A stretch of DNA of 60,575 bases from Hondaea fermentalgiana (taxonomy: Eukaryota > Sar > Bigyra > Thraustochytrida > Thraustochytriidae), in assembly GCA_014084085.1 (NCBI GenBank), contig NPFB01000002.1:1-60575 (forward strand). Reading direction: 5' to 3'. Position 1 is the stretch's first letter. The number at the start of each line of letters is the position of its first letter. The notes under the pieces were generated by a model. It made no database searches, was not told the DNA's origin, and worked only from the letters and a program-made list of their open reading frames with translations. The translations under genes and the position numbers were made by a program. This document shows positions 16,652 through 36,200 of the stretch, piece by piece.

Positions 16652-19600
16652 CTACACGACCTGAAGAGAAAAATCATCAAGGTCGTCGTTTACATTTCCG
16701 TCCTCCCTGCCTCTATACTCCTCTTGATCTTGCGAATCGCTCCGCGCCAGCACATTCTCGCCATGATGCGCACGTTCTTGTGGCAGCTCTTGATTGTGCC
16801 TGCGGACCGCATACACATCCTCGTTTTCGCCACCTTGCAAAACGTCTTGCCCTTGCTTATGGTGCCTCGAGCCTTGACTTTCCTCCAGGGCGCCCTGGAC
16901 GTCCTCTATAACATTATTATGTGCCGCCTCTTCGTTTAGAGCAGCAGCGCCGGTTGCTTCATGAAGAGCGTCCTCGTTTGTACGTTCTTCAGACTCCGCG
17001 ACCTGAGCGACTGCAAATGCAGCCGAGGTTGGCTGCACTGCTGGTGGCTGCTGGGCAGGCGGTGCCATTGCCGAGAGCGATTCCTCAATAAGTTCACGCA
17101 CTCCCGGCGCTTCGGCTTCAAGAACTGACCAGGTGACCTCCCAGGTGTTCTCGCCAGACTTTTCCGAGACCTTTTGAAAGAGATTCTCGGCCTGCATGAC
17201 CATCATGAGGTTGCGCAAGTTCTCGAGCGTGCTTTCGCGCACAGTTCCGCCCTTTGCAAGTAGCTTGCTTGTAATTGTCACCGTTCGTAACCAAAGTGCG
17301 CCGAAATCAGAGGTCTGCCCCAGTACGCCAACATTGTGTAAAAAGGTGCGCATCAGCAAATTGATCGCGCGAATCGATTTCTGCGGTGCGAAAGTCGCGT
17401 CCTGCCTCGCAGTGTCCTCGACCAGGGGAAAGAGAATCTTGTTGAAGATTTCGGGCCAACGGCGCTGCTCGATCCGCTCCGGAGGCGACCATAGCGCAGA
17501 CTGAAGGCTTTGCGTCGCTGCAGCGGCTACCTCAGGCCTCGGGTCTGCAAACCAGTATCGAAGCTGAAGCACAAGCAACATCCAGCACTTGTCCCGATCT
17601 GGAAGCAGCGATGCGTCAGGGCCTTCCACCACGTAGCTGCCATTGAGCATTCGGTGCATTGGGCTTGTAACGAAATCGTCCATCTCGAGGCCCTCTTCGC
17701 CGGAATCGCCAGCATCCTTTGCCTTTGCTGCCACGATGTGGCCATTCTCGGTCTCTGCAGACGGTTGCTGTTCCAGCCCGTCGGAAGCAGCATTCAATCC
17801 TGCACTTGCAGCGCCGCTACCGGCAGCGGCCTCGACCTGCGCCAAAGAATCGATTGACGCGCAAAAGTCCGGATCGCGAGAATATACCTGCCGAGAAATC
17901 TCGTAAATGAGCCCAACCGCTTCTGCGGCCCGGTCTCCGGGAGCCAAAGCGTCAGGGTCTACGCCTGGGAGCGCTGCCCGCTCATCGTCCCGAATAAAGA
18001 GTCTGATTGTATCAACGATTGCATTCATGTTGATGCGGCTCACGTGGCCACTGCGCACGAGCGTGCAGACGATGTGCCAGGTCGCGTCCACGGAGTCGCG
18101 AAAGTGCGCAAATCGGTCGAGCAACCGGCAAACGATGCGCCAATCTTGCGCGGCACTCACATTACCTGCATGGAAACGAAGAACCGTCGAAAGCCCAGAA
18201 CCAATACGCGCCGCTAACGGAACGCATAGTTCGTCTGAGAAATCGCCCAGCCAGCTTAATGCAGACAGCAAATGTGACATGGTCTGAGGTTTGTCCAGAA
18301 CCTGCACGCTAATGCGCAAAAGATTCACGACGACGCGCTCCACCACAAAAAGAGAGCACTTGCCCGCGCGTACCACGCGTGCTGGACGGGGCCGCAATGG
18401 CGCTGGTGTGTCCCACGCTGCGGCAGCTTCGTCATCACCCTCGGGCAAGGCACCTGCGTTGACGAGAACTTGACGAAAGGCACGATGCAGGAGCGGCCAA
18501 AAAGTCTCGATGGATTCTTTGTTGGCCAGCCCGACCTCTGTAAGGAGCTCTACGCAGAGAATGTTGTTTTGCTCAAACGAAGTGCCGTCATCAATGTCTT
18601 CCACCCCGGCCGCCACGGCGGCCTCCGCACTTAGCGTGGCATCCTCGAGCGGGACTAGCAGAGCATCAATCAGCAAAAGCAGCGAGGGCTGCGAGAGCGA
18701 CTTTGATTTGGAGAAGACAGTGTTGAGCCGGCACGCCGTGAGCGTCTCGCGCACGAGTTCTCGGCACTCCAAAAAGTGTTCGTCAATGCCATCATCCTCG
18801 GACCAAATGAGCGAGGTGAGCGCGCTAAAAAAGCCGCCGCGCTTGGGAGCTTCTTTCACCTCTTCCTCGGCGGCCCCGACCCCACCTCTCGCTCCGGCAC
18901 CACCCGCACGTTTGGCGTCTGTTTCAACAGAGAGAGCTCGATGACCGCGGGGGCGCCCACCTTGCTGCTGCTGTTGTTGTTGACGCTGGTGTTGCGAAGA
19001 ACGATCTTCTTGCTGGAGTTGTTGCTGGTGCTGCAAACGGTTGCCCTCGGTGGTATTCAAAGGATCAGACTGCGCCAAAAGCGCAGCGCTGGTGGGCAAA
19101 CGATTGCCATGTTGATCAACGACGTCGTCCACTTCCACAAAGGAAGACGGTAGCATGTCGAGCTCGTGCATGACTAGGAGCGTCTGTACAAAATTCCGCC
19201 ACGACTCCCGCATGAGACTTCCGTATTGCTTGGTCAAAGACAGCAGCGCGCGAAAGGTCAACAGAGCCCGACACGCCGGGTACGCCGCAAATCGCTCGCC
19301 CTTGGCCAAAGATGCGGCCAGTTTTTGCCGTTTCGATTTTCCTTGTGTCGAGTACACCGTGGCGTCGCGTAGGGCTTCCAAACCCTCGAGGTCCAGCTGC
19401 GTCTGCGCACCCTCTTGCAGTGCCGGAAAGAAGCGCACAAAGTACTTGCACAGGGTGATCATGATGCGATTAAAGTGCTCGAAAAGGCGAAAATAGACGG
19501 CAATCTTGCCCAGGTTCCGAAACCCCTCCAGAGCGCGCGCTGCCATCTTGCCGTCGCGTGTCATCTCAAACATCACCGATATGGCCTGCATCGAGGAGTC

Positions 19601-22561
19601 AAAGAGAATCGTATACATGTCGCGCTCGTGCACGCCCGCGCGTAGAACGCCAAGGCGACCAAGCGCCCGTGGCGTAAAGAGGGCCTTGTCCACGACCTGC
19701 GAGTGCCGAAGGACCGTGTCCCACGTTGTGCCGACACCCGTGAGCGAGTTCCGCGACGGTGTGGCGGCGTCGGTCTGCTCGAGCTGTAGAGCCGACGAGT
19801 GCGCGTGCGGGTCGTAAAGCATGCGCATCTCCTCGTCGCGAATGGCTTCATACACGCTCGTGAGCAGAGTCTCGGGCAAGTTCTCCCCGGCGTTGATGTT
19901 GCGGTTGTTGCGCACAAATTCATGGAGCTTCATCTTCTTCTCGGCTGTAATACCCTGATTGTGCAGGTCGGTATGAAGCATAATGATGGAAAAGGCAAAG
20001 ATATAGGCGGCGTCGGCAGAGCGAAAGATACACCGCGCGTCCTCATCGGCATCCTCGTGACCTTCGGGCGCAGGGGTCGTGTTTTGCGCGTAAAGTTGCT
20101 TGCCAAAGGCTTCCACCACACGGTCCACACGCTGTGCCTCGCCGGGAAGCCGAAAGCTCGCCAGAAACATGCGCAGGGCACGGTCAATACGCACGCCCGC
20201 AAAATCAAAGCTCGCCAGGTATGCTTGCATCACCTCGTGATTAAAGGGTTTGTACGCTGGATCCTCTGACAGATACTCGCCAACGGCTGCTTTGTCGAGC
20301 CCGGGCGTCTTCAGAAAGAAATCAGCGATATCCTTGGGGGTCACGGGCGTCGGCAAGACGTTCAAATCCTGGGCATATTCGAGCCAGTACATTTTGTTGG
20401 GCTTTTTGTTGAATTGACGCGCCGCCAAGAGCAGACGACGCTTCATTTGTTTTCGCTCCCGAAGCATCTCGGCGCGACGTTGCCGCGCGTTCGCCAGCCA
20501 TTGCAAGTCCTCCTCGCCACCGTTTGTCTCGCTAAACGCGCTCCAGTCGACCGGAGAGGCCTGGCGTTCACGCGCGGTGGCCTGCGCCACAGCTGCTGCA
20601 ATGGATTCTTGCGGCGGAGAATCGACGCAGCGACGCGCGATCGAGTCAATCACGGCCAGCACGCCCTCGAGCGCAACACCCTCGAGCACGGTGATGCCAG
20701 TGCTATCATCGTCAGGATCGAGATCTTCACTGAGTTCCATAATCAAATCGAGGCTCGAGGCAAAGTCTTCCGCGGACAAAACGGCGTTCTCCGGTCCCAT
20801 GTCCTCGTCGGTGTCGAGCCCCGTGATGGACGCGATTCTGGCATTGTTGGCCAACACATGCAAAGGAATTGAACACCGGCAAAGACACTTGCACAACGTC
20901 TCAAAGAGGTTTGTGCAGCGAAAGTCACAGTCATAGTTCGTGTAAAGGTCCAGCATGAGCGCCGGTTCACGGCAAAAGTCAAGCAAGGACTCCAGCGCCA
21001 GCTCCTTGCGTTCGTACGTCGCAGACGGCGACTCTGCAATACGCAAATGCACACTCGTGAGAAAGACCTCGAGCTGCACTTTCAGATGGCCCTTCATTGC
21101 ATTGAATAAATTGAAGATAACACGCAATGTCAGTGACAGCACCGACAAGTCGGAAGATTGCGAGTTCTGCAGCAAGTGCTTGCACATATCCCCTTGCAAG
21201 ACTGAAATAATCGGTGACGACTCCATCGGCGGGGCAGATACAGCAAGGTTGTCGCCTCCACTCTCTAGCACAATATTGATGAGCTGCAGGGCGAATACGC
21301 GCGCAGACTCCGAGTTGAACGAAGGGTCTGTGAGCTGCGCCATAAAGTCCAGGACCTTGACCAGCACGGGAAGCCCATACGAATCGGCGCCACCTTGAAG
21401 GGCTTGCGAGCGAGCTGCAGAAGACGAGTTTCCAAATCGAATTGGCTGCAGCATTCGATAAAGCACCTCATCGGGGTCCTGATTTTGCCCATGTCCTTGG
21501 CGCTGATGCCCTTGCACCCCTCGCGCTTGATGCGTCGCTTGCAGACCCTCTGAATATGTCAAGTTCCGTGCAGTCGAAACGATTGGAGACAACTGACCCG
21601 ATAGTTGTGCTTGCCGTTCGCCCGAGTCTTCAAAGTCGCCCGTCGCACTTGTTGGCATCACGGTGACCTTTCCGCCCTCACTGGTAGAGCTCCCGTCCCA
21701 GGCCTCCGAGGCGGATTGGCCATCCTCGTTGAGCTCGCTCGTCGCACCTCCCGAGTCTGGGCCGTCCTCGCCCTCATCATTGTCGTCGTCGTCCGTGGCC
21801 ACGTCGTCTTCATCGAGAATATCTTCGCCCGCCTCACTGCGTCGTCGCGACCGCCCTTGCGTCATGATTGCCTCAAGGTAATCGTCACGCGAGCCGCTAA
21901 AGTTTTGCATGCGACGTTCCATCTCGGAGACTGCATCCACGGTAATGAGCTCTGAGGAACGCGAAAATAGCGTAAGAATGAGATGCGTGAGACTATTTGC
22001 TGCCGTGCTTCGAAGGAGCTGGCTCGTTCCCGACTCGGTCTTGAGTCGAAAACAGGTTTCCACCATCCTCCACACGTTGATGTCGCTAATGTAGCTTCCT
22101 GCCTGACATCGCAAAAGGTTCACAAGCACCTCCAAAAGTTGCATGAGAACGACTTCGTCGCTGTACGAGTTGGTGGCCTCGAATTTGCACTCCACCACGC
22201 TGGCGACAGCCAAATTGATGGCTTCGCGTCCACGTGGGGACTCCTTTGTCACGGCACCGTAGAGCAGAAATTTGTTCACGCTAGAGAGAGCTCGCCCCGT
22301 CATGGCGCCGTTCGTATTCGGAAAGGCGACAACGTCCAGGAAGGGCTGTAGATATGCCACGGCATCTACGTCGCTAATATCTTCAAAGGGTTGCAGGTAG
22401 TCATGCAGCGTGCGCAGCGACCTGATCATTGGGTTCTCGAAGTCGCTTGGGATCTCCCGCATGAAGCGTTCCTCGCTGGCCCATCGCCCGTTGCGCCGCA
22501 TCGTCGAGAGCACATTATGGATCTCGCTGCGCACGCAGTTCAGGATTTGGGCGCCGTCCAT
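16652..22561 (-). CDS. Large ARF guanine-nucleotide exchange factor, GBF1/Gea/GNOM type
   Basis: The 1,969-residue single-exon protein has the layout of large Sec7 GEFs. An N-terminal DCB domain starts with VRSEIHNVLSTMRRNGRW and includes MTGRALSSVNKFLLYG. A HUS domain carries the HUS box NYDCDF. The Sec7 domain lies at about residues 715-905. Its glutamic finger is in SFRLPGEAQRVDRV and its second motif is FAFSIIMLHTDLHN. HDS-type helical repeats follow, then a low-complexity tail. The DCB/HUS wording fits the GBF1/GNOM branch better than BIG/Sec7p. It activates ARF1-class GTPases at the Golgi for COPI recruitment. An acidic linker (about 245-285) and a Gln-rich linker (about 1160-1190) interrupt the fold. 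Ser, Met and Asp in the second motif match brefeldin-sensitive Sec7 domains. Confidence 0.94.
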   Translation of the reverse strand: MDGAQILNCVRSEIHNVLSTMRRNGRWASEERFMREIPSDFENPMIRSLRTLHDYLQPFEDISDVDAVAYLQPFLDVVAFPNTNGAMTGRALSSVNKFLLYGAVTKESPRGREAINLAVASVVECKFEATNSYSDEVVLMQLLEVLVNLLRCQAGSYISDINVWRMVETCFRLKTESGTSQLLRSTAANSLTHLILTLFSRSSELITVDAVSEMERRMQNFSGSRDDYLEAIMTQGRSRRRSEAGEDILDEDDVATDDDDNDEGEDGPDSGGATSELNEDGQSASEAWDGSSTSEGGKVTVMPTSATGDFEDSGERQAQLSGQLSPIVSTARNLTYSEGLQATHQARGVQGHQRQGHGQNQDPDEVLYRMLQPIRFGNSSSAARSQALQGGADSYGLPVLVKVLDFMAQLTDPSFNSESARVFALQLINIVLESGGDNLAVSAPPMESSPIISVLQGDMCKHLLQNSQSSDLSVLSLTLRVIFNLFNAMKGHLKVQLEVFLTSVHLRIAESPSATYERKELALESLLDFCREPALMLDLYTNYDCDFRCTNLFETLCKCLCRCSIPLHVLANNARIASITGLDTDEDMGPENAVLSAEDFASSLDLIMELSEDLDPDDDSTGITVLEGVALEGVLAVIDSIARRCVDSPPQESIAAAVAQATARERQASPVDWSAFSETNGGEEDLQWLANARQRRAEMLRERKQMKRRLLLAARQFNKKPNKMYWLEYAQDLNVLPTPVTPKDIADFFLKTPGLDKAAVGEYLSEDPAYKPFNHEVMQAYLASFDFAGVRIDRALRMFLASFRLPGEAQRVDRVVEAFGKQLYAQNTTPAPEGHEDADEDARCIFRSADAAYIFAFSIIMLHTDLHNQGITAEKKMKLHEFVRNNRNINAGENLPETLLTSVYEAIRDEEMRMLYDPHAHSSALQLEQTDAATPSRNSLTGVGTTWDTVLRHSQVVDKALFTPRALGRLGVLRAGVHERDMYTILFDSSMQAISVMFEMTRDGKMAARALEGFRNLGKIAVYFRLFEHFNRIMITLCKYFVRFFPALQEGAQTQLDLEGLEALRDATVYSTQGKSKRQKLAASLAKGERFAAYPACRALLTFRALLSLTKQYGSLMRESWRNFVQTLLVMHELDMLPSSFVEVDDVVDQHGNRLPTSAALLAQSDPLNTTEGNRLQHQQQLQQEDRSSQHQRQQQQQQQGGRPRGHRALSVETDAKRAGGAGARGGVGAAEEEVKEAPKRGGFFSALTSLIWSEDDGIDEHFLECRELVRETLTACRLNTVFSKSKSLSQPSLLLLIDALLVPLEDATLSAEAAVAAGVEDIDDGTSFEQNNILCVELLTEVGLANKESIETFWPLLHRAFRQVLVNAGALPEGDDEAAAAWDTPAPLRPRPARVVRAGKCSLFVVERVVVNLLRISVQVLDKPQTMSHLLSALSWLGDFSDELCVPLAARIGSGLSTVLRFHAGNVSAAQDWRIVCRLLDRFAHFRDSVDATWHIVCTLVRSGHVSRINMNAIVDTIRLFIRDDERAALPGVDPDALAPGDRAAEAVGLIYEISRQVYSRDPDFCASIDSLAQVEAAAGSGAASAGLNAASDGLEQQPSAETENGHIVAAKAKDAGDSGEEGLEMDDFVTSPMHRMLNGSYVVEGPDASLLPDRDKCWMLLVLQLRYWFADPRPEVAAAATQSLQSALWSPPERIEQRRWPEIFNKILFPLVEDTARQDATFAPQKSIRAINLLMRTFLHNVGVLGQTSDFGALWLRTVTITSKLLAKGGTVRESTLENLRNLMMVMQAENLFQKVSEKSGENTWEVTWSVLEAEAPGVRELIEESLSAMAPPAQQPPAVQPTSAAFAVAQVAESEERTNEDALHEATGAAALNEEAAHNNVIEDVQGALEESQGSRHHKQGQDVLQGGENEDVYAVRRHNQELPQERAHHGENVLARSDSQDQEEYRGREDGNVNDDLDDFSLQVV

Positions 22562-23304
22562 CCTCTCGCTTTCGCTGTCGTCGCTTCAGTTCCGGTCTCG
22601 GCCGCCGCTGCCTTCGCCGCGCGCTTCCCTTTCTCGCTCGCCTCTGGCCGCCCAAGCTCTGCCGCCTCGTCGCGCACGAGGTCGTCGCGCTCGAGGTCGC
22701 GCTCGCGCTGCAGAATGCGCCGGCCACGTCAGCCGCCCACCTCGCCTCGCCTCGCAGCTGCGGCCCGCGTCTCCGGGCCGGCCGAGCCGCGCGCAGAGCC
22801 GCGCCGCGCGTCTCCTCCGGTCGCGACGCCTCGGACGCGCGCGCCGCGCTCTCGTCCCGCGCGCCGCGTTCGCTTTTTGCGAGCAGGCCCGGCGCGAGGC
22901 CTCGAGGTGAAGGCCTTTTTGCCGTCGTTCCTCTTCTGGCTTCGAGCATCTCCTCGTTTCTTCCTCTCGTCAACTCGGTCGACACTGGGACCGTGCGGCA
23001 TGGAGGACCACGTCATTCATTCCCTGGTGGCCATGTCGTGGACGCCGGGGATCGAGACTGTAGAGGAAGAGTGTACAGATGAGCGGTAGACGAGGAAAAG
23101 AGCACAGAGAATGAGCGCATCTGGATGGTGATCGTTGGCGTCTGCGTTGCAGCTTCCCGATGTGCAAGTCTGTATTACGAGATGCTGCTGTCCGGCTTCT
23201 TCTTTAGTGGACCTGATTACAACGTCCGTGTATGAAAGCTTACTCTCGGCATTAGGAAGGAATCAAGCTACTCGCTTCTCAGAGATGAAGTTGTGCACGT
23301 GCAT
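22562..23304. other. GC-rich upstream region of the GBF1-like gene
   Basis: Arg/Ser/Pro-rich frames occur on both strands and look non-coding. The region should hold the promoter of the minus-strand GEF. Nothing else is supported. Confidence 0.4.
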
Positions 23305-23311
23305 GTGAAGC

Positions 23312-23520
23312 AGAATTGGCGAGACCAAATTCGGCGACGGCTTCTCTGTTGAGGTCATTGACGCTTTCGGAGACGTACGCGCAGCTCATGGACGAGGTTG
23401 TTCATCTCGGTAAGATCAAGGACTTTCTCAGTCGCGATGACTTTGTCCTCATCTATGACGCGATGCACAGCGTCGCGGGACCCTTTGCGAAGCGTATCTT
23501 CCACGAGCAGCTCGGCGCGA
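23312..23520 (+). pseudogene. Truncated, frameshifted fragment of phosphoglucomutase
   Basis: About 205 bp closely match the plus-sense equivalent of the intact PGM gene on the minus strand at about 31420-31628. The copy reads GETKFGDGFSVEVIDA in one frame. After a single extra base near 23366 it continues in another frame as ETYAQLMDEVVHLGKIKDFL and AMHSVAGPFAKRIFHEQLG. Homology stops abruptly on both sides: the copy starts inside the gene and ends after the codons for QLG. There is no start codon of its own and no catalytic Ser region. The nucleotide-level match points to a relatively recent segmental copy, now in inverted orientation about 8 kb from the source. Confidence 0.88.
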
Positions 23521-24061: not shown

Positions 24062-27000
24062 CTAATTAATCCTTCTCCGCTTTCCACGTGCTCCAGCGAC
24101 CTTCTCGTCCCCCTCGTCATCAAGTTCCATTTCTGCTGAAACGACGTTGCTCTCGTTATAATCATCAGATCTGCTCGATACACTTGTGCTCGTGACTGCC
24201 ATCTCCGCCGCAACCGACGTCTTCTCAGCGTCCTCCGCATCATCACCATGTTCTGCTGCTTCGAGAGGCTTCGTTGCATCCTCATGCAGGCCAATGGCCT
24301 GTCTGATCGACCATACAAGAGTGTCCACCTCGTCTGGCTGGCCCCCATTTAGCATTCGAACATACAATGGATCGCCACTCCACGATATCCCGAAACGCCC
24401 CTCCCACGTGCTTCTGTTCTCCATCTCTTTTTCCAAGACACATGGAATCATACTCGCGGGCTTTACACGCTGAAGAGCATAACAGAACTCGGCTCGACAG
24501 TTGTCAAGCTCTGTCCTCTCTTTATTGACGTTACTCATGTATTTCCGGGTCACGAAGACCACAAAAGCTTTGGAACGGTCAATGCCGTCCGCCATCGAAT
24601 CGAGAACCTCTGTGCCAATGTCTTTCTCGTCGAGCCAACAGCGGATTCCGCGACTTTCGAGAGCACCCGCGATGGCCTTCACCATTCCATGGACCTCCTT
24701 GTTCTCACCCCAAGCATGCGACAGGAAGACGTCGAACAGCTTGGCATCACTAGTGACGGATGAATACAAGCCTCGTGCGGCCTCACCATCCTCTACAAAT
24801 GGCGAGAACAGTGCCAAAGAAAGACGTATTCCCCTTTGCAATGAGGGAACCTCGTTGTTTGTTGCATCTGCAAATGCATCAATAGAAGCACATGCATCTT
24901 CGCTATCGGAGCCGTCAGAGCTAAGAAAGAGTTTCGGTCCAAGATTTCCCCTCATGAAAGACGCGTCGATGCTTTCCAGACAATGCTGGAGAATCTTGAC
25001 GTGACTCTTCAGACTTTTCTTCGCGGGTTTCTTGAAGTGAAGCGTCACCCGCCTGCCGCTTGTTTCCAGGATCATGTCCACATTTTCAAAGGCAATACTC
25101 GCAAAGTCGGAGAATACGACACCATTTCTCACACCCACGAGACCCGGCAAGCTCTGTATGAGACTGGCAATGAAGCGTTGGAACACACCTTTGGGGAGAA
25201 CCTTAAACTCGATGTAAGCCAAAGCGCGTTGCTCGCCCAGGCCACAAAGTGCCTTTGTCCTTACATCATTCTTCACTGGTTGCAAAAGGCTCGGTATCAG
25301 GAGTGCACCATCCTCGTCGACATCCTCGATCCAAGGACTCGGGCATGCCAACAACATTGCGTGCATTAGCTCGACAAGGTAATCGACCGGCTGTCCTTGC
25401 CATAGCCACTCTAGTAGTTGCCGACTGGCGACTCCACGTTCTGACCAGACATCTAGCGCATCTCGTAGATTCCTCGGCAATTTTCCTTGATGCAACAGCT
25501 TCTTCTTGTGCCTTTTCATGTGATTCATGCGCGGGTCGCAGATGACACGCGAAAGGTTTTCCAAGAGCCATTGCGGCCGAATCACGACAATCTGTCGCAG
25601 TACGTCATGTTGGCCTGTCGTCAGGTGCACAAGCACGCCGAGTTCATGCATGTACTTGAGCATCTTGGACACGTCTTCTTTCGAAATGTGGCACTTTTTT
25701 GTTGCCAGTCTTTCTACATCATCCAGCGACAAGTAATCCTTGTCTTGCGAGAGCAGCTTCTCCAAGCAGTAGGACCATCGTAAAGGGACCTTCTTCTTGA
25801 CAAAGTCCTTGTCAGCAACCGTCTTCGAAAGCGACTCGCGAAGCGACCTGACCCGATTGCGCTTGTCATCCCGATCGGTGTTGTCGATCGGGAAAAACCA
25901 GAGCTGTGCTTTGTCATTCAGCAGCACAACGGGCTTTGCGCCGCAAGGTCTCAGCACCTCCGTTTCTAAGGTGTCTTCGATCTCCTCGTGCTCCTCAGAG
26001 TCCGGTACCTGGTCAAGATATGTCCCCACCAGGGCAATATTGGCATCCGGTGCGTGTAGACGAATGGAGTCGATCCAGAAGCGAAGCGTCTTCAAGGAAT
26101 CTTCTTGCGAGGCGAGCTTTGTGTACTCAGTCTCGTCGAGCTTATTTTTGACACGCTCCTTGCCCAGAACCTCGCGCATGTCGAAAACCAGCACGTAGAC
26201 GCCGTATTGCGTCAAGAACAGATGGTGTAGGGCATAAAAGACTTCCTGACCACCATAGTCCCAGATCGTGAAGCTGATCTCCTCATCTGGCTTGTCGGCT
26301 TGCTTCTTTATATGAAGACGAAGCGGTGTACTCACGGCTTTGGCAATCTCCCTTTTGTCAAATGATGCCTTTGATCCACGACTCGAGGTGGACTTTCGAG
26401 AAGATTTAGGGGGTTTCAGATCATCTTTCGACAAGTGCTGGAGGATGCCCTCGGCAACGTCCTGCCGACGGAATTTGTACTTTGCAAATTGCTCGCCAAG
26501 ATCAGCGTCACCGAGTTGTTTGCGCTCTTTCCAGTCACGCGTGCGCATCAACTTGAGTTCCACACCAATGGTTGAGTCGTGATCGGAATTATACGGTTGT
26601 CCTAGAAGCGTGCGAATCGTTGATGTCTTGCCTGCGGCGCCTTTGCCCACGACCATAAGCTTGGCGCGACCCCAGCGTACCTTTTCATCCGCCTTGAGTG
26701 CCTTATAAGCGGCTCTGCTGAGACCCTTTAGCTCCTTCTGCACGAGCTTGACTCGAGCCTTAATACGAGCGAGGATGTCGGGGGAAATTGGATCAAAAAT
26801 ATAAACACCCAGACTGTTTGGTATTCAGCTTGTGAGCAATAGATGTCATTTTTAACACCGAGTGCCAGAGTGTCAGCACATGGAAACGTACTCTAGTTCT
26901 TGAAGAATTTCGTTGCTCTCCAACGCAGTGGCTAGTGCCTCCGCTCCCGCGTTTCCAATCGTGTCGTCGCTCAAGCTGTGGAGTGGCGTAGCGAACGTCA

Positions 27001-29685
27001 GCGGAACGCAGGCCGTGCCATACCAAGTCTTTCTGCGACGTACCTTAAAGAAGTCAACAGCGACTTGTTATTGGTCAGAGCATCCGCCAGCGCCTTTGCG
27101 CCATCGACGCCGATGTTGTTGAAATTCAGCCTGTGTTTGTTTATCGAAGCAAATGTGCATGGCATCAATCAAGAACGGAAAACGACAGCGTTGAGCATCC
27201 GTTGGTGTGACAAGATTGTTGCAACGTGCTTACTGGTCAGTCGTTCTTGCTCTTTGCATATAGTCCTTCTTTCCTCAGTGTCACTTACTCCAGCTCCTGC
27301 AATGACGAGTTCTTCGTGAGCGACACTGCCAGCGCCTTTGCACCATCGACGCCGATATTGTTACCACCAAGCCTGCGTTCGTGCGTCATGGCCAATGCCG
27401 TGAACGAAAATGTGCATGGCGTAGTGTAGAAGCCATTGATAGTAGCATCATGCATCCAGTTGGTGTGATAAGATTATTGCATTGTGCTTGCTGGTCAGTC
27501 GTTCTTGCTCTTTGCATATAGTCCTTCTTTCATCACTCTTACTTACTCAAGTCTCTGCAGCGACGAATTTTTCGCGAGCGCATCTGCAAGCGCCTTTGTG
27601 CCACCAGGACCGATATTATTATTCGAAAGCCTGCGTTTGTGCGTCATGGACAATGCCGTGAACCAAAATGTGCATGGCGTGGTGTAAGAACCATTGAGAT
27701 CAGCATCATGGATCCATTTGGTGTGAAAAGATTATTGCATCGTGCTTACTGGTCAGTCGCTCTTGCTCCTTGCGCAAAGTCCTTCTTTCCCCACTGTTAC
27801 TTACTGGAGCATCTGCAGTGACGAGTTCTTCGCGAGCGCATCTGCTAGCGCCTTTGCGCCACCAGGACCGATATCATTATTCAAAAGCCTGCGTTTGTAC
27901 ATCATAGATGAATGTCGTGAACGAAAATGTGCATGGCGTGGTGTAGAAGCCATTGATAGCAGCATCATGCATCCATTTGGTGTGATAAGATTATTGCATT
28001 GTGCTTGCTGGTCAGTCGCTCTTGCTCCTTTCGCAAAGTCCTTCTTTCCCCACTGTTACTTACCTGAGCGTCTGCAGGGACGAGTTCTTCGCGAGCGCAT
28101 CTGCTAGCTCCTTTGCGCCACCAGGACCGATATTATTTCCCCTAAGCCTGCGTTTGTACATCATAGATGAATGTCGTGAAACAAAATGTGCAGAGCGAGG
28201 TGTAGAAATCATTGATAGCAGCATTATGCATCCGTTTGGTGTGACAAGATTGTTGCAACGTGCTTACTGCTTAGTCGTTCTTGCTTACTACCTCGGAGGC
28301 CTTTTTTCCTCAATGTTACTTACCCCAGCACCTGGAGCGGCGAGTTATTCGTGAGCGCATTTGCGAGCGCCTTTGCGCCACCAGGACCGATATTATTATT
28401 CGAAAGCCTGCGTTTGTACATCATAGATGAATGTCGTGAACGAAAATGTGCATGACGTGGTGTAAAAACCATTGATAGCAGCATCATGCATCCATTTGGT
28501 GTGATAAGATTATTGCATTGTGCTTGCTGGTCAGTCGTTCTTGCCCCTTTCGCAAAGTCCTTCTTTCCCCACTGTTACTTACGACAGCGTGTGCAGGGAC
28601 AAGTTATTCGCGAGCGCATCTGCTAGCTCCTTTGCGCCACCAGGACCGATATTATTTCCCAAAAGCCTGCGTTTGTACATCATAGATGAATGTCGTGAAC
28701 GAAAATGTGCATGGCGTGGTGTAGAAGCCATTGATAGCAGCATCATGCATCCATTTGGTGTGATAAGATTATTGCATGGTGCTTGCTGGTCAGTCGCTCT
28801 TGCTCCTTGCACAAAGTCCTTCTTTCCCCACTGTTACCTACCAGAGCGTCTGCAGTGACAAGTTCTTCGCGAGCGCATCTGCTAGCGCCTTTGCGCCACC
28901 AGGACCGATATTATTATTCGAAAGCCTGCGTTTGTACATCATAGATGAATGTCGTGAACGAAAATGTGCATGACGTGGTGTAAAAACCATTGATAGCAGC
29001 ATCATGCATCCATTTGGTGTGATAAGATTGTTGTATGGTGCTTGCTGGTCAGTCGCTCTTGCTCCTTGCGCAAAGTCCTTCTTTCCCCACTGCTACCTAC
29101 CAGAGCATCTGCAGTGACGAGTTCTTCGCGAGCGCATCTGCTAGCGCCTTTGCGCCACCAGGACCGATATTATTACTCCAAAGTCTGCGTTCGTGCGTCA
29201 TGGACAATGCCGTGAAACAAAATGTGCATGGCGTGGTGTAAGTACCATTGACAGCAGCACCATGGAACCATTTGGTGTGAAAAGATTATTGCATCGTGCT
29301 TGCTGGTCAGTCGTTCTTGCTCTTTGCACAAAGACCTTCTTTCCTCACTGTTACTTACTCTAGCATCCGCAGTGACGAGTTCTTCGCGAGCGCATTTGCA
29401 AGCACCTTTGCGCCAGCATCGCCCATGATTTTATATCGAAAACTGCGTTTACACATCATGGAATAAACAGAAATGGTTGAGGAGAGTCACCAAAGAAGAC
29501 AACAAATCATGGTCAAGCATACGTTTGGATAAGTCAATGTCACGCCCCTGCCGGTCAGCCCATCTCATCTCCTGCGAGTACATGTTGTCCTTGACGTACG
29601 ATAGTTTCTCCGCGCCCTCGCACATCGATTTGATCGCATCTTCGAGGCTCTCCGGGAAAACTTCTCTCTGAGTTGGTCTTTCCAT
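24062..29685 (-). CDS. LRR-Roc-COR-TIR protein (Roco GTPase with TIR domain), 13 exons
   Basis: On the minus strand, an N-terminal exon (ATG at 29685 to about 29500; donor not resolved) is followed by eleven single-LRR exons and one long exon, 26813-24062. All resolved introns are phase 2 and the frame closes exactly, giving about 1,287 residues. In the last exon (numbered from the Met at 26743), Roc carries G1 VVGKGAAGKTS (31-41), G3 WDYGGQE (161-167) and Roco-type G4 VGTYLD (239-244). COR runs about 300-650, with HELGVLVHL and VVIRPQWLLENLSRVI. TIR starts at DVFLSHAWGENKE (about 670), with RGIRCWLDEKDIGTEVLD and FVVFVTRKYMS. The Glu of GTEV (codon at 24608-24610) aligns with the catalytic Glu of NAD-cleaving TIRs. 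A Ser/acidic tail ends in a basic cluster. The layout suggests an NLR-like sensor: LRR detects, Roc-COR switches, TIR executes. That role is inference; the domains are clear. A Roc insertion (about 75-150) is unusual. Confidence 0.85.
26892..29442 (-). repeat. Tandem array of single-LRR exons with homogenised introns
   Basis: Eleven exons each encode one ribonuclease-inhibitor-type LRR of the form LxxNNIGPGGAKALADALAKNSSLQTLx. Plus coordinates are 29359-29442, 29101-29184, 28842-28925, 28583-28666, 28324-28407, 28064-28147, 27805-27888, 27547-27630, 27289-27372, 27044-27130 and 26892-26975. Ten are 84 bp and one is 87 bp. Each is flanked by phase-2 introns, so the exons are interchangeable. 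The first nine have a period of 258-260 bp, and their separating introns (174-176 bp) are nearly identical in sequence. The introns nearest the Roc exon are different and shorter (158, 68 and 78 bp). The pattern implies recent unequal crossing-over or gene conversion spreading an exon+intron unit. Confidence 0.93.
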
Positions 29686-30377: not shown

Positions 30378-32126
30378 TTAGGTGATGACCGTAGGACCTT
30401 CGCGTCCCGTAATGGCATGGAGGTCAGAAAAGTCAAGCGCCAGCTGCACGAGCGACTCGAGCGCAGAGGCAGTCTCCTGCGACGTATCGTCCTTGCTGTA
30501 CCGTTCAATGTAGAGACGAATCGTCGCGCCAACAGAACCAGTTCCAGAAAGGCGAAAGACAAAGCGCGATCCGTCTTCCATGAGAAAGCGCCAACCCTGA
30601 TGCGGAGACACAGAGCCATCGACCTCGTCATGAAACTCAAACTCGTCGCAGTTCGCGAGCGTGAAGCCAGCGCCAATGTCCACCGGAGCGCGGTTGGAAA
30701 CCTCGAACATAAAGATGATGCCATTGAGGCGCGACATGACCTTTTGCGCAAGATCAGCATCGACATTCTCGTAGTCATAACGCGTGTAATAATTGCGTCC
30801 AAAAGTATCCCAGTGTTCGCGGACAACGTCCTCGACTGTGACGAGCGGAGCAGAAGGCTCGTTCTTGGCGGCAAGAATGTTGAGCCAGCACAAGACGGCG
30901 AAAATGCCGTCCTTCTCACGGATGTGGCTCGAGCCCGTTCCGAAAGACTCCTCGCCGCAAAGTACCGGATTGTAGTCCTTCTTGCCGCCTGTCAGTTCCT
31001 TGGCGTCCATCAGGTTGCCAAAGTACTTCCAGCCCGTCGGCGTCTCAAAAAACTTCATGTCCTTTTCTTCAGCAACGCGGTCAGCGGCGCCAGAGGTGGG
31101 CATGCTGCGCGCCACGGTCTTGAGACCATCCTTAAAGTACTTGATGCACTCTGCGTTATTGGCAATGACAGCCAGGGAGTCTGACGGAGTGACAAAGAAC
31201 TGCTTGCCGAGAATCATGTTACGGTCCGCGTCACCATCTGCAGCGGCGCCAAAGTCAGGGAGACTCTCAGGGTCCACTCCTTTGAGCGGCATACCCTTTT
31301 GGTCAAGGCCCATGCACTCGACGAGGTCATGTGCGTAGGTAAGGTTCGGGTCAGGGTGGCCTCCGCCAAAGTCTTCGAGCGGTTCGCAGTTCAGGAGCTG
31401 CTCGAGCGGCACGCCGAGCTCCTCGTGGAAGATACGCTTCGCAAAGGGTCCCGCGACGCCGTGCATCGCATCATATGTAAAGACAAAGTCATCGCGACTA
31501 AGAAAGTCCTTGATCTCACCGAGATCAAAAACCTCGTCCATGAGCTGCGCGTACGTCTCTGTAGCGTCAATGACCTCGACAGAGAAGCTGTCGCCGAATT
31601 TGGTCTCGCCGATCTCGGCCAGATCGACTTCGGGGAGATCTGCGATCCTGTACTCGGAGATCGTCTTCGTCCGCTCGTAAATGGCGCTCGTGACGGACTC
31701 CGGCGCGGGTCCGCCGTTTCGCGAGTTGTACTTGATGCCGCAGTCCTCGTTCGGGCCGGCCGGGTTGTGGCTCGCGGTCAAGATGAAGGCGCCTGCCGCC
31801 CCCTTGGATCGCACCAGGTGGCTCACGGCCGGCGTCGAGATGAGGCCGTGCTGGCCGACGAGAACCTTGGCGACGCCATTGGCGTACGCCATGCGAATGA
31901 TCGTCTGCGTCATGTCCTTGTTAAAGTAGCGGCCATCGCCGCCGAGCACGAGCAGCTCGCCGGTCGTGTCGGCGTCCCCGTCGAGCGCGTCAAAGGTGCT
32001 CTGCACGAAGTTCTCCACAAAGTTCTCCTGCATGAACGTCTTCGTCTTCTTCCGCAGGCCCGACGTCCCGGGCTTCTGGCCCTCGTACGGCTTCGTGCTC
32101 ACCGTCTTCACATCCGGCCCGCCCAT
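30378..32126 (-). CDS. PGM: Phosphoglucomutase (alpha-D-phosphohexomutase family)
   Basis: The 582-residue enzyme interconverts glucose-1-phosphate and glucose-6-phosphate in the cytosol, linking glycogen/glucan metabolism, glycolysis and UDP-glucose synthesis. The N-terminus KPYEGQKPGTSGLRKK is family-typical. The phosphoserine loop is TASHNPAGPNEDCGIKYN; most homologues have GG where this has AG. The metal loop is DGDADRNM, the sugar-binding loop CGEESFGTGSSHIREKDG, and the phosphate-binding site near the C-terminus RLSGTGSVGATIRLYIE. Length agrees with the family (about 560). It is a single exon. A fragment of this gene lies inverted at about 23.3 kb. Its promoter region is shared with the divergent channel gene. 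Confidence 0.96.
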   Translation of the reverse strand: MGGPDVKTVSTKPYEGQKPGTSGLRKKTKTFMQENFVENFVQSTFDALDGDADTTGELLVLGGDGRYFNKDMTQTIIRMAYANGVAKVLVGQHGLISTPAVSHLVRSKGAAGAFILTASHNPAGPNEDCGIKYNSRNGGPAPESVTSAIYERTKTISEYRIADLPEVDLAEIGETKFGDSFSVEVIDATETYAQLMDEVFDLGEIKDFLSRDDFVFTYDAMHGVAGPFAKRIFHEELGVPLEQLLNCEPLEDFGGGHPDPNLTYAHDLVECMGLDQKGMPLKGVDPESLPDFGAAADGDADRNMILGKQFFVTPSDSLAVIANNAECIKYFKDGLKTVARSMPTSGAADRVAEEKDMKFFETPTGWKYFGNLMDAKELTGGKKDYNPVLCGEESFGTGSSHIREKDGIFAVLCWLNILAAKNEPSAPLVTVEDVVREHWDTFGRNYYTRYDYENVDADLAQKVMSRLNGIIFMFEVSNRAPVDIGAGFTLANCDEFEFHDEVDGSVSPHQGWRFLMEDGSRFVFRLSGTGSVGATIRLYIERYSKDDTSQETASALESLVQLALDFSDLHAITGREGPTVIT

Positions 32127-33276
32127 CGTGCCTCGCTCGCTCGCTCTGCTCGCTCCCTCCGTCGCTTTCCTCCTCCGCTCGGCCTGCTCCGCCGCTGCCG
32201 CGACCCGCGCTCTGCCTCCTGCTCTCGCCGCCCTGCTGCGTGCAGCTGATCGGGATTTGCTGCCGCGTCTTCATCCTCGTCACCCCGACAATCTTTTTCC
32301 ATGCACATCAACGCACACTCTCACTCTCTCTCTCTCTTGCACTCCAACAGAAGCAGCGCAAGCAGCAGCCTCGCCAGCTGGCTGCTGGCGTCCACGGCAC
32401 TCCAGCAAGCTCCCGCGAGGACCGGCTGCGGACCTCCTCGCGAGCTCAAGCTGCCGCGACAGCAGCGACAGCTGCGACCTCGCTGCTCGGGCAGAGCGCC
32501 GTGAAGCCTCGGAGCAGGCGAGGAATCGGGATCGAGGCTTCGTCCAACACCGGCACCTCCCGTGAGCAAGCCAGCAAGAGAGCAAAAAAGCAAGCAATCA
32601 AAAGAGCAATTTGTTTTGCAAAAAAGCAAGCCAAAAAGTACTATACACTACTACTGCGCACACGCACACCCCATGACTTCGCCGTCACCTCCCTCGCCGT
32701 CCTTGGCCCACCGTCGCGGCCGTCAAGGACTTACTTCTCCATCTTGGACCTGCGCAGCCAAAAGTACTTTGCAAAGCCAAAAGTACTCTGTGAATCATGT
32801 GGACGACGGCGGGAAGCCCGAGCACGGGAAGGAGCCTCGGGCTGGACCGAGGGGCATTTGTCGGGCGGCAGTCGGCCGGAGATTCGCATCTTTGACGATC
32901 TAGCCATACCGCAAGACGCGGATGGACTTTTCTTTCAAGCCGCGGCCGGTCGAGGACTTGGCATCGCACGTGTGAGCGCCCTGGCATGGACGCGGCCACG
33001 GAAACGGAGGCGATGTCTCGGTCACCCTCGAATCGAATATGCATAAAAGACCCAATGCAATAGAAGAGGTCTATTCGTAACGGCTCGCCACGAGTCAGCG
33101 GTGACCATCTTTGCTCGACGCCCCATGCATTTGTCCTTGGCGCTCGCGTGCGCGCTGGGCTGGAGAGAGGGGGTGGGGAGAGAGAGAGAGACAAAGGGAG
33201 AGACAAAGCACGGCCAGCCAGCTAGGGGCACTGGCACAGAGCCACTTGGGCACCGCTGACCGAACGTTTTCCCGCC
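32127..33276. promoter_or_regulatory. Divergent promoter region of PGM and the channel gene
   Basis: This 1,150 bp segment separates two divergent start codons. It contains CT-rich tracts (about 32320-32340), A-rich plus-strand sequence at about 32575-32640, and a GAGA-type tract at about 33165-33205. Short frames look non-coding. Elements for both promoters must be here but cannot be assigned. Confidence 0.5.
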
Positions 33277-36200
33277 ATGGCCGCCCCGAATCTGAAACAT
33301 ATTCCCTTGGCGGAAGGGTCCGCCAAGGTCTCGAATATGTTCCGCGCAAGAGACCGCAGCGCGCTAGTCATCGTTCACGCGCAAGAGGACGTCGTCGCTC
33401 ACGCCACCAACAGGGAGCAGGCGCTCTCCAGGCTTGACAGACTCCAGGACTCCGTCTACTTTCCCTCGACCTTTGTTGTTCTACGATGGCACCCCGCACG
33501 ACACTGCTCGTTTGTGCAAAACCACCCTGGCGCGGACATCGGCGAAGTACGCTACTTGTTCGAGCTTGGCGACACGCAGCGCCTGCGCAATGAGGAGTGC
33601 GTCGCGGGCACCTTTGGAGTGACCCCCTTGCGTCTCGAGGTATCCAACCACATTGTCTTTACCGGCACCGACCCACGCCGCGACGCCTACTCGGCCTTCA
33701 AGGACGCTGGATCAGAAAAGCTCACATCCCTCTATAAAATACTCCACGCCAAGGCCATCGACGAGCTCTACATTTGCGGAGACTCCGACGCCGTGAGATT
33801 CACGGCCATGGACGCATGCAGCTTCCTTGACAAAGCACGCATCCACATCGTCACCGATGCCTGCGTCCAGAATGCGACCTCTTTGAGTCGCCCAATCGGT
33901 ACAGAAGACTCTCACAACTCACAGTACCACGTTCGCTATAGCCACGTTGACGACATCATCGCCTCGTTTGCGCCACCACCTTCGCCCATGAGTTCACCCA
34001 AGCCAAGTCCTGGGGCAGCCCGAAACTTTAGTTTTGACGGGACGAGAGTGAACTCCGAGCTGTCCATTAGTCTTCTCGATGAGAGTGTTCTCATGCTCGC
34101 CGGCTCTTCGGGATCCTTGCTCACCGCAAGACGACTTGCCGAGGTGCCGGACATAAACGCCCCGTCATCTTTGTGTGGCCGCACAGTCCTCCACGCCTGC
34201 TGCTGGTCGGGCAATGTTGGAGCGATCGACACCTTGTGCGCTGCGCGACCCGAAATTGATCCAACGTGCCTTGACAACAACGGCTTCACGCCTCTAGCCT
34301 TGGCCCTCCTATTCGCGCCGCGAGAAGCAAGAGTCGAAGTTACAAAGCGTCTCTTGGCCGTCTCTCCGAAATTGCGTGCCAAGATTCCCATGCAGCGCTT
34401 TGCGCCGCATCAGCAGACAGCACTCATGATTGCCAGCGAGAACGGCGACGCAGAAGTCGTGGATCTTCTTCTCGAGGTCGACGACTCCGAAGATCACATT
34501 CGCTGCATCGACGCCTGTGGGCGATCCGCCATCATGCTTTCCCTCTCGCAAGAAACCGAGTCTCACAATCGCGTCTCAAGGCTCTTGTTCGAAAGAATTC
34601 CGCTGCATTCGCGCATTAGTCTCCTCGAGGCCTCTGACAATGGCGGTTGGAACGCCCTCCACTACTCTGCTCGTAGTGGCGCCTTTGCCCATCTTTCCTG
34701 GCCTACTCTATTAGGCAACGCTAGTTATTTATCTGCGTTGCCCGTGAACGCCCTCACGCAGGGCGCATTCACCTTTCTACACCTTGCAGCAGCAAACGGC
34801 AAGTTCGAGGTTATCCGTACGCTCGTGGAGCTCTCCAAGGACGGTGAACATCCATTCGATCGTTTGGCAGATATTATCAAGGTCAATCTTACCGTGAACG
34901 CCCCGCTCGCCAGGACAGTGCGCGAGCAGCGCAAGACAGAACTCGATCTTGCGATTCAGCATGGTCATCTTGAGACCGCGCGCATGCTCTTGCGCATCGG
35001 ATGCCACGCTTCTGCAAATCGCGGCTACATGCAAGAGCTTTTGCATCGTCTCGTGCTCATGGGAGATGTCGAGGCGTGCGAAAACATCCTCGCGTTTCCG
35101 ATGGAAAACGAAATTCGAATCGACCATGCTCTAGTCTCGCTCACAAAGCGCATCGAGGCTCCAGAGGTATGTACATCTCGATGCTCCGACTTCAAGCCCG
35201 TCCTGCAGTTCGTGTATCATTGCGCCTCGTGCAATATCGACGTCTGTCTCGTGTGCAGGGAGCGCTGCCATGCGTCATGCGCGCAGTCAATTACACCCAA
35301 GGGATTCGGCCTCGCGTTGTGCGGATGCAGCAGTCGTAACCGCTGGGCTTGCCACGCGTCTACGTCGATTGACCCGCGTGAGCGTGCTGCAATGGCGTTC
35401 GACCCGACTCCCCTCGACACAAGCATCGTCAGGCTCAGCGCTTCCACCGAATCATTGGCCCGTCGGCTCGCACGGAACATGCACAATGTCTGGTGCAAGA
35501 TCAAGCTCGAGCAAGGCTGGCAGTACAGCCGCACTCGCGATGATGCGCGCAAGCTGCACCCGGCCTTGGTGCCCTTTGAGAATCTTGCCCCAGAGGACGC
35601 AAAGTACAATACGCACATGTGCCAAGAGACGGTCAAGCTCATCATCCTCCTCGGATTCCGTCTCGAGTCGCCCTCCGAGACGCAGCTCGCCAACCAGTCC
35701 AAGACTTCGCCGTCCAATGTGCTCACCTCGCGGAGCAGGCAGGACTCGTTAAAGTATGCCGAGGAGCAATGGGACGAGTCAAAGCCGGGTTGCGCCCCCA
35801 TCGACACGACAAAAGCGCCAGATACGCTTTCCAAACACCTCGAAGACCTTATTCGCTGCATCTCGGTGAACTCGCACGAGGTTTGGGCACGCGAGAAGAT
35901 CAATCAGGGGTGGCGCTACGCGCCCCAACGCAACATTGCTCGGAACCTCAAGCTCAACCCATCGCTCGTACCATACGTCCAACTACACGAGGATGAACGC
36001 AACGCACTTCGCGAGGGCGTCGAGCAGACCATCAAATCAATCATGTCGCTCGGGTGGCACATTGAACCTCTCAGCGAGGTTGCAACTGCGAATACCCTGC
36101 GCCGAACGCAACAGCGAGCGGAGCGCGCCAGTGTCGACATGACCTGTGAGCGAATCGCATACCACAACGTCGACGAGATGCGTGTGCAACTCCTAAGCTC

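Follow-up and report, generated by a model that had tools for sequence, protein, structure and literature searches.

Putative NLR-like receptors of the LRR-Roc-COR-TIR type, encoded by a multigene family in the thraustochytrid Hondaea fermentalgiana

In plant TIR-NB-ARC-LRR proteins (TNLs) and animal NLRs, sensor repeats, a nucleotide switch, and an effector are joined in one cytosolic chain, and the surface of the leucine-rich repeats (LRRs) is diversified. LRRK1, LRRK2, and the bacterial and archaeal Roco proteins of C. tepidum and M. barkeri have a kinase or no C-terminal effector. A gene of Hondaea fermentalgiana described here resembles the plant and animal receptors in its sensor-switch-effector chain and in the apparent diversification of its LRR surface, whereas its switch is a Roc-COR GTPase and not a STAND ATPase; unlike LRRK1, LRRK2, and the prokaryotic Roco proteins, it has a TIR domain as C-terminal effector. 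Its order, with the LRRs N-terminal and TIR C-terminal, is the reverse of that of the plant TNLs. The gene is found on contig NPFB01000002.1 (C2), the whole of which (60,575 bases) is the window analyzed and which belongs to a 36-Mb, 238-contig assembly. We consider it probable, from sequence comparisons, that the gene belongs to a multigene family encoding NLR-like intracellular receptors for non-self, with Roc-COR as the switch and TIR as the output.

Most brown-algal ROCO genes have LRRs on 72-nt phase 2 exons, with shuffling and alternative splicing, and the LRR-ROCO genes among them, on which Zambounis et al. 2012 is cited, are a multigene family of proposed immune receptors with positive selection on the concave face (PMC11378527). 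In the accessible sections of that study, COR (PF16095) is recorded in 18 of 111 brown-algal ROCOs, three carry a C-terminal peptidase and three DUF900, and no TIR is reported. Like these genes, the Hondaea gene combines LRR-ROC-COR with one LRR per phase 2 exon in tandem. Unlike them, it has LRR exons of 84 or 87 nt, encoding repeats that we take from their consensus to be of the ribonuclease-inhibitor (RI) type, and it has a C-terminal TIR and a unicellular host. Exon shuffling may have been inherited from a common stramenopile ancestor or have arisen twice. The same sections of the brown-algal study give four or fewer ROCOs for unicellular SAR relatives, with Schizochytrium aggregatum among the species that have ROCOs, and link large exon-shuffled ROCO repertoires to multicellularity (PMC11378527); in contrast, 31 COR-A loci over the cut-off were found in Hondaea. 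The link to multicellularity is broken by this unicellular stramenopile, in which TIR accompanies 27 of the 31 COR loci and no fewer than 14 modular LRR arrays occur.

The initial annotation of the window implied that the string of domains was unique, which does not hold, as two putative Toll-like receptors of Aplysia, both in silico genes, contain LRR, ROC, COR, and TIR (PMC9334734). The Aplysia proteins share this domain set with the Hondaea gene, the Mbt or EF-hand additions being their own, and no LRR-exon array is reported for them in the accessible part of that paper. ROCO and TIR also occur together in the TPR-ROCO-TIR protein of Chondrus crispus named in PMC11378527, but there with a TPR sensor and in a red alga, and TIR is one of the domains in the legend to a figure on ROC-COR in Trichoplax (PMC4104024). 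Because the Aplysia and brown-algal cases are published, neither the domain string nor the shuffling of LRR exons is new by itself. In the open-licence literature, covered mostly by listing, no report was found of a large TIR-bearing Roco family, of LRR-exon shuffling combined with this domain string, or of a family of this kind in a unicellular stramenopile, and as far as searched these three features are new.

The spliced model comprises 13 exons on the minus strand from 29685 to 24062, with a frame open over 1,254 codons that yields a 1,254-amino-acid protein. An 86-nt start exon is followed by ten 84-nt LRR exons and one of 87 nt and by a 2,752-nt last exon; each of the twelve introns has GT-AG borders and is of phase 2, interrupting the codon after its second base. 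In the protein, an N-terminal cap precedes 11 LRRs (one per exon), Roc, COR, and TIR, and each small exon after exon 1 encodes one 28-residue LRR (29 residues once). The coordinates, strand, and domain order given in the initial annotation were correct. Its small exons do join the long exon, but they number twelve (the start exon plus 11 LRR exons) and not eleven. In the following list, LRR exons 1 to 10 were identified by the spliced model, the array search, and the paralogue matrix described below, and LRR exon 11 by the spliced model, the paralogue matrix, and the comparison of arrays.

29600 to 29685, minus strand: exon 1, with the ATG start codon and a short N-terminal cap, MERPTQREVFPESLEDAIKSMCEGAEKLS; donor GTACGT, phase 2
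29359 to 29442, minus strand: LRR exon 1, 84 nt, more diverged than any other LRR
29101 to 29184, minus strand: LRR exon 2, 84 nt
28842 to 28925, minus strand: LRR exon 3, 84 nt
28583 to 28666, minus strand: LRR exon 4, 84 nt
28324 to 28407, minus strand: LRR exon 5, 84 nt
28064 to 28147, minus strand: LRR exon 6, 84 nt
27805 to 27888, minus strand: LRR exon 7, 84 nt
27547 to 27630, minus strand: LRR exon 8, 84 nt
27289 to 27372, minus strand: LRR exon 9, 84 nt
27044 to 27130, minus strand: LRR exon 10, the penultimate, 87 nt
26892 to 26975, minus strand: LRR exon 11, the last LRR exon, 84 nt
24062 to 26813, minus strand: long exon, with the helix linking LRR and Roc, Roc GTPase, COR-A, weak COR-B, TIR, tail, and stop
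24419 to 24730, minus strand: TIR_2 core match, 63.6 bits (family search of the genome)
27195 to 29459, minus strand: 259-bp units of exon plus intron, repeated in tandem 8.8 times with 86% matches (Tandem Repeats Finder)

In a Pfam search of the spliced protein, LRR_6 (6.2e-38), Roc (1.8e-17), TIR_2 (1.3e-16; 61.6 bits against a cut-off of 28), and COR-A (3.7e-13) were all over their cut-offs, and COR-B, at 16.4 bits, was under its cut-off of 27. One LRR-Roc-COR-TIR protein of NLR-like layout is thus present in a labyrinthulomycete, as the initial annotation had proposed. Roc is directly followed by COR, the tandem by which Roco proteins are defined, and carries the GTP-binding motifs, a P-loop (GKGAAGKT) and a switch of the DxGGQ type (DYGGQE); D185, G188, and Q189 are invariant across 42 aligned sequences. 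The predicted Roc-COR fold matched LRRK2 and bacterial and archaeal Roco proteins in a search with the whole model, by which the TIR part was hardly probed. Neither NB-ARC nor NACHT was found by Pfam in the open reading frame (ORF) of the long exon (E up to 1) or in the spliced protein (E up to 0.01); as a Roc GTPase is present and these are not, the gene is not an NLR, though it may work like one. No signal peptide or transmembrane segment was seen by eye in the 1,254 residues, and the tail is acidic, of low confidence, and ends in GKRRRIN before the stop.

The observation of a single spliced LRR-Roc-COR-TIR frame was confirmed. Seven paralogous genes supplied 71 LRR exons for a score matrix, with the exons of the window left out, and this matrix was run on all 681 open AG..GT stretches of 81, 84, or 87 nt that have the right phase on either strand of the window. 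Twelve rows reached a score of at least 25, and these correspond to the 11 LRR exons of the model (one in two lengths); no further LRR exon was found among these candidates, and zero matches were obtained in 20 single-base shuffles of the window. The JGI-sourced protein P0013, which we take to be one uninterrupted ORF and whose LRRs seem to be free of introns, is collinear with residues 35 to 966 at 39% identity, in an alignment that crosses LRR-LRR junctions as well as the LRR-Roc junction. P0024, derived from an MMETSP transcript and presumably of Aurantiochytrium, aligns with residues 70 to 762, also at 39% identity. Because both proteins are collinear with the spliced model, the exon joins are supported. 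The join LQELDLGVYIF, on which the initial annotation had relied, is the junction of the last LRR exon with the long exon, and this last exon matches the last exon of other genes in all eight arrays compared. At the other end, donor 29599 (GTACGT, phase 2) fits the model, and ATG-phase 2 exons resembling exon 1 (by eye ..EDAIkxmsEGxxxL) were found upstream of four of seven paralogous arrays (C195, C113, C97, and C1). An alternative end of exon 1 at 29523 (AAAC|GTATGC) was ruled out, being of phase 1 and leading the next exon into a stop.

The deposited counterpart, P0002, is named 'Leucine-rich repeat serine/threonine-protein kinase 1' and was matched by the long exon at 98% over 82%, and there is no kinase in its precomputed Pfam list. 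Of the eleven LRR exons it retains two and passes over nine; toward the C terminus it leaves the frame inside TIR and finishes in the antisense of a phosphoglucomutase fragment. Both ends of the gene are misannotated in the deposited record, and for these two faults P0002 was rejected as a gene model. Related Hondaea genes carry the names of NOD2, NLRP1, Rab, or F-box proteins.

The differences between repeats of the window gene fall on particular sites. Repeat positions 2, 3, 25, 26, and 28, the exposed x of the LxxLxLxxN strand, were taken as concave, and exons 3 to 9 of the spliced model as the seven youngest repeats, exons 2 and 10 being omitted as older. Among these seven, non-synonymous divergence (pN) was 0.422 per site at the five concave positions and 0.057 elsewhere, with a synonymous divergence (pS) of 0.145 and an intronic divergence of 0.100 (95% interval, 0.073 to 0.128). 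Random sets of five positions reached the observed concave value in 2 of 20,000 draws in the window gene and in 31 to 908 of 20,000 in the other seven arrays. The true register ranked 1 of 28 cyclic shifts in the window gene and no lower than third in any of the eight arrays. By 5 to 95% resampling intervals, an excess of pN over pS was clear only in C2 (0.13 to 0.38) and C195 (0.08 to 0.24); we read the older arrays as saturated. From this pattern of substitutions, the predicted ligand face of the LRR array looks diversified.

The introns between array units are 78 to 98% identical, and 113 of 253 informative site pairs in eight units fail the four-gamete test, so that the units look like mosaics. 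The penultimate LRR exon has 87 nt in all eight arrays (C2, C195, C96, C113, C97, C1, C170, and C11); since only exons of equal length were paired, the 8-of-8 match of this exon was forced by length and was not used. In each of the eight arrays, the last LRR exon is most similar to the last LRR exon of a different gene. Among internal exons compared with internal exons, the nearest neighbor lay within the same gene for 37 of 74, against 9.6, with a maximum of 22, in 2,000 shuffles of the labels, and when the fixed exons were admitted as partners the best match was of the same gene for 31 of 74. As last exons match across genes and internal ones within genes, the end of the array is fixed and its middle is turned over within each gene.

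A genome search with the long exon gave at least 56 matches, with 50 of 68 candidates scored. The COR-A model gave 33 matches, 31 of them over the cut-off, and TIR_2 gave 73, with 68 over the cut-off. When loci were paired by place, 27 of the 31 COR-A loci carried TIR_2 over the cut-off and three more had a weak TIR_2 (C13, C15, and the second C38 copy), while COR-A locus C110:19184 had no TIR_2 match. Because some COR-A loci sit at contig ends, whole genes may number fewer than 31. In the same family-model search of the genome, NB-ARC had no match and NACHT had six over the cut-off. Pfam was run on 24 of 27 extracted ORFs; all 24 had COR-A over the cut-off, 22 had TIR_2 over the cut-off, and 23 had Roc. 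WD40 propellers were found in four (C69, C221, C26, and C47) and an actin domain in one (C15). In this last case (C15:113657-115645), the actin domain, Roc-COR, and a weak TIR are joined in a 1,757-amino-acid ORF.

Arrays of LRR exons, of phase 2 and mostly 84 nt, were found at 14 Roc-COR loci, 13 of which have TIR over the cut-off. The first search was positive at eight of nine loci, with 11 exons in C2, 7 in C195, 10 in C96, 12 in C113, 11 in C97, 10 in C1 (three of them weak 78-nt exons), 18 in C170, and 14 in C11. The second was positive at six of 17 loci (C168, C136, two C110 genes, C13, and C173), with at least five to eight exons each. No LRR exon was found in the searched stretches of C198 (negative in the first search too), C3, C102, C212, C105, C69, C221, C26, C47, C25, and C15, stretches that extended only 1.6 kb upstream for C69, C221, C26, and C25 and 0.1 kb for C105; the count of 14 omits C116, C172, both C38 genes, the third C110 gene, C206, and C233. 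In a quick tree of 62 Roc-COR sequences, made by a short search without bootstrap and with support from the Shimodaira-Hasegawa-like approximate likelihood ratio test (SH-aLRT), the window gene falls in a clade of nine Hondaea genes and four outside relatives (SH-aLRT, 100), and the six other LRR-array genes fall with the WD40 genes in a different clade (SH-aLRT, 100).

In the mechanism that we infer, the Roc-COR GTPase unit would be used where plant and animal NLRs have NB-ARC or NACHT, and the one-LRR-per-exon array would serve as a variable sensor. Whole 28-residue repeats would be gained, lost, and reassorted as the near-identical introns undergo unequal exchange and conversion, and selection would diversify the residues of the concave, ligand-facing strand. 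Binding of a ligand to the LRR solenoid would alter the nucleotide or dimer state of Roc-COR, for which bacterial Roco proteins and LRRK2 provide the model, and this change could bring C-terminal TIR domains together. The TIR domain would then signal, most likely as an NAD+-consuming enzyme because a catalytic-type glutamate is kept, toward defense or death of the infected cell. This glutamate, in the later part of TIR, is aligned in 39 of 42 homologues and would correspond to the catalytic residue of TIR NADases. Matches of the domain to bacterial TIR proteins span only its first half. In PADLOC, the long exon is matched best by TIR models from anti-phage systems (ThsB, 3.7e-11), and its best NCBIfam match is a retron TIR model, far under the cut-off; these matches point to homology of the TIR domain only. 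A family of this size, with such arrays, suggests that Roc-COR can take the place of NB-ARC or NACHT in diversified receptors. Since thraustochytrids are culturable and transformation has been attempted in the related genus Aurantiochytrium (PMC8534400), the ligand, the TIR output, and virus resistance are directly testable.

Several observations weigh against a family of diversified non-self receptors. Catalysis by the TIR domain is argued from one aligned residue, and its sequence matches in the PDB are near noise (best E value, 0.0051, with antibody light chains reaching 0.012). The TIR of paralogue C13, at 24.6 bits, is below the Pfam cut-off, and no TIR is among the domains listed for P0013, which is the closest of the outside relatives that have LRRs. 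The concave positions were assigned from the LRR consensus and not from a structure of the LRR itself, and the seven C2 repeats had been picked as the young ones; across all nine internal 84-nt exons and four concave positions, pN was 0.448 and pS 0.338 (ratio, 1.32). For pN minus pS, the interval barely takes in zero in C96 and C113, straddles it in C1 and C170, and lies below it in C97 and C11. Repeated mutation can also produce failures of the four-gamete test. Finally, there is an in-frame stop in the matched stretch of paralogues C113, C116, and C25, which are possibly recent pseudogenes or contain introns or assembly errors.

The family could instead be a general Roco signaling set for stress, chemosensing, or development, with TIR as a scaffold and no recognition of non-self. 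Many brown-algal ROCO genes are reported to respond to other stress conditions (PMC11378527), and the WD40 members of the Roco-TIR family are not typical diversified sensors, yet this reading is rather doubtful, as diversification of the ligand face and turnover of the array are hard to reconcile with a fixed self ligand. It is also unlikely that exon diversity is a by-product, in which conversion homogenizes the introns, the exons drift, and the concave excess reflects relaxed constraint. Between many copies the introns do match better than the exons, the units look mosaic, and an excess over synonymous divergence is not clear in six of eight arrays. In the seven youngest repeats of the window gene, however, concave non-synonymous divergence is about three times the synonymous and four times the intronic divergence, and a neutral rate cannot be exceeded by relaxed constraint unless introns and synonymous sites were separately homogenized.

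Two further explanations concern the gene itself, and both are very improbable. That a separate or decayed gene, made up of the LRR exons, lies beside a Roc-COR-TIR gene might be read from P0002, which retains only two of these exons, but the strict phase 2 splice pattern, the same kind of last LRR exon adjoining the Roc exon in 8 of 8 genes, the similar exon 1 in four of seven paralogues, and the collinearity of P0013 and P0024 across LRR and Roc all speak against it. A separate LRR gene was rejected by the paralogue matrix, the comparison of arrays, and these homologues. A pseudogene, as the in-frame stops in paralogues C113, C116, and C25 might suggest, would hardly be open over 1,254 codons with its nucleotide-binding motifs and splice sites intact, nor would it be expected to show a pN outside the concave sites (0.057) well under pS (0.145).

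A stronger form of the receptor hypothesis makes the array a repertoire generator, by which the cells of one clone would produce many receptor versions through exon skipping or mitotic recombination. This is conceivable because the introns around the LRR exons are nearly identical and because skipping any LRR exon would leave the frame intact, each being in phase 2 and a multiple of 3 in length. We regard it as quite unlikely. If true, a unicellular eukaryote would have a Dscam- or VLR-like variable immune receptor together with a TIR death effector.

Other genes share parts of this architecture. At C75:178517-182392, matches to LRR, COR (below the cut-off), and TIR lie inside one open frame of 1,448 amino acids, a possible intron-free relative. 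Of the 68 TIR_2 matches over the cut-off, 41 are not at a COR-A locus over the cut-off. P0093 and P0099 join Roc-COR to a caspase-type peptidase domain (PF00656, precomputed list), a putative second death-type effector on the Roc-COR switch.

On opposite sides of the receptor gene, 23318-23517 (plus strand) and 31412-31610 share a 200-bp piece at 92% identity in inverted orientation, one copy belonging to a gene named phosphoglucomutase by eye; the locus is flanked by an inverted partial duplication. On one side, a 2,132-amino-acid ORF at 33226-39624 (plus strand) has ankyrin-like repeats and several hydrophobic stretches and is TRP-channel-like by eye. On the other, a 1,977-amino-acid ORF at 16652-22585 (minus strand) looks by eye like a large ARF-GEF of the Sec7 type.

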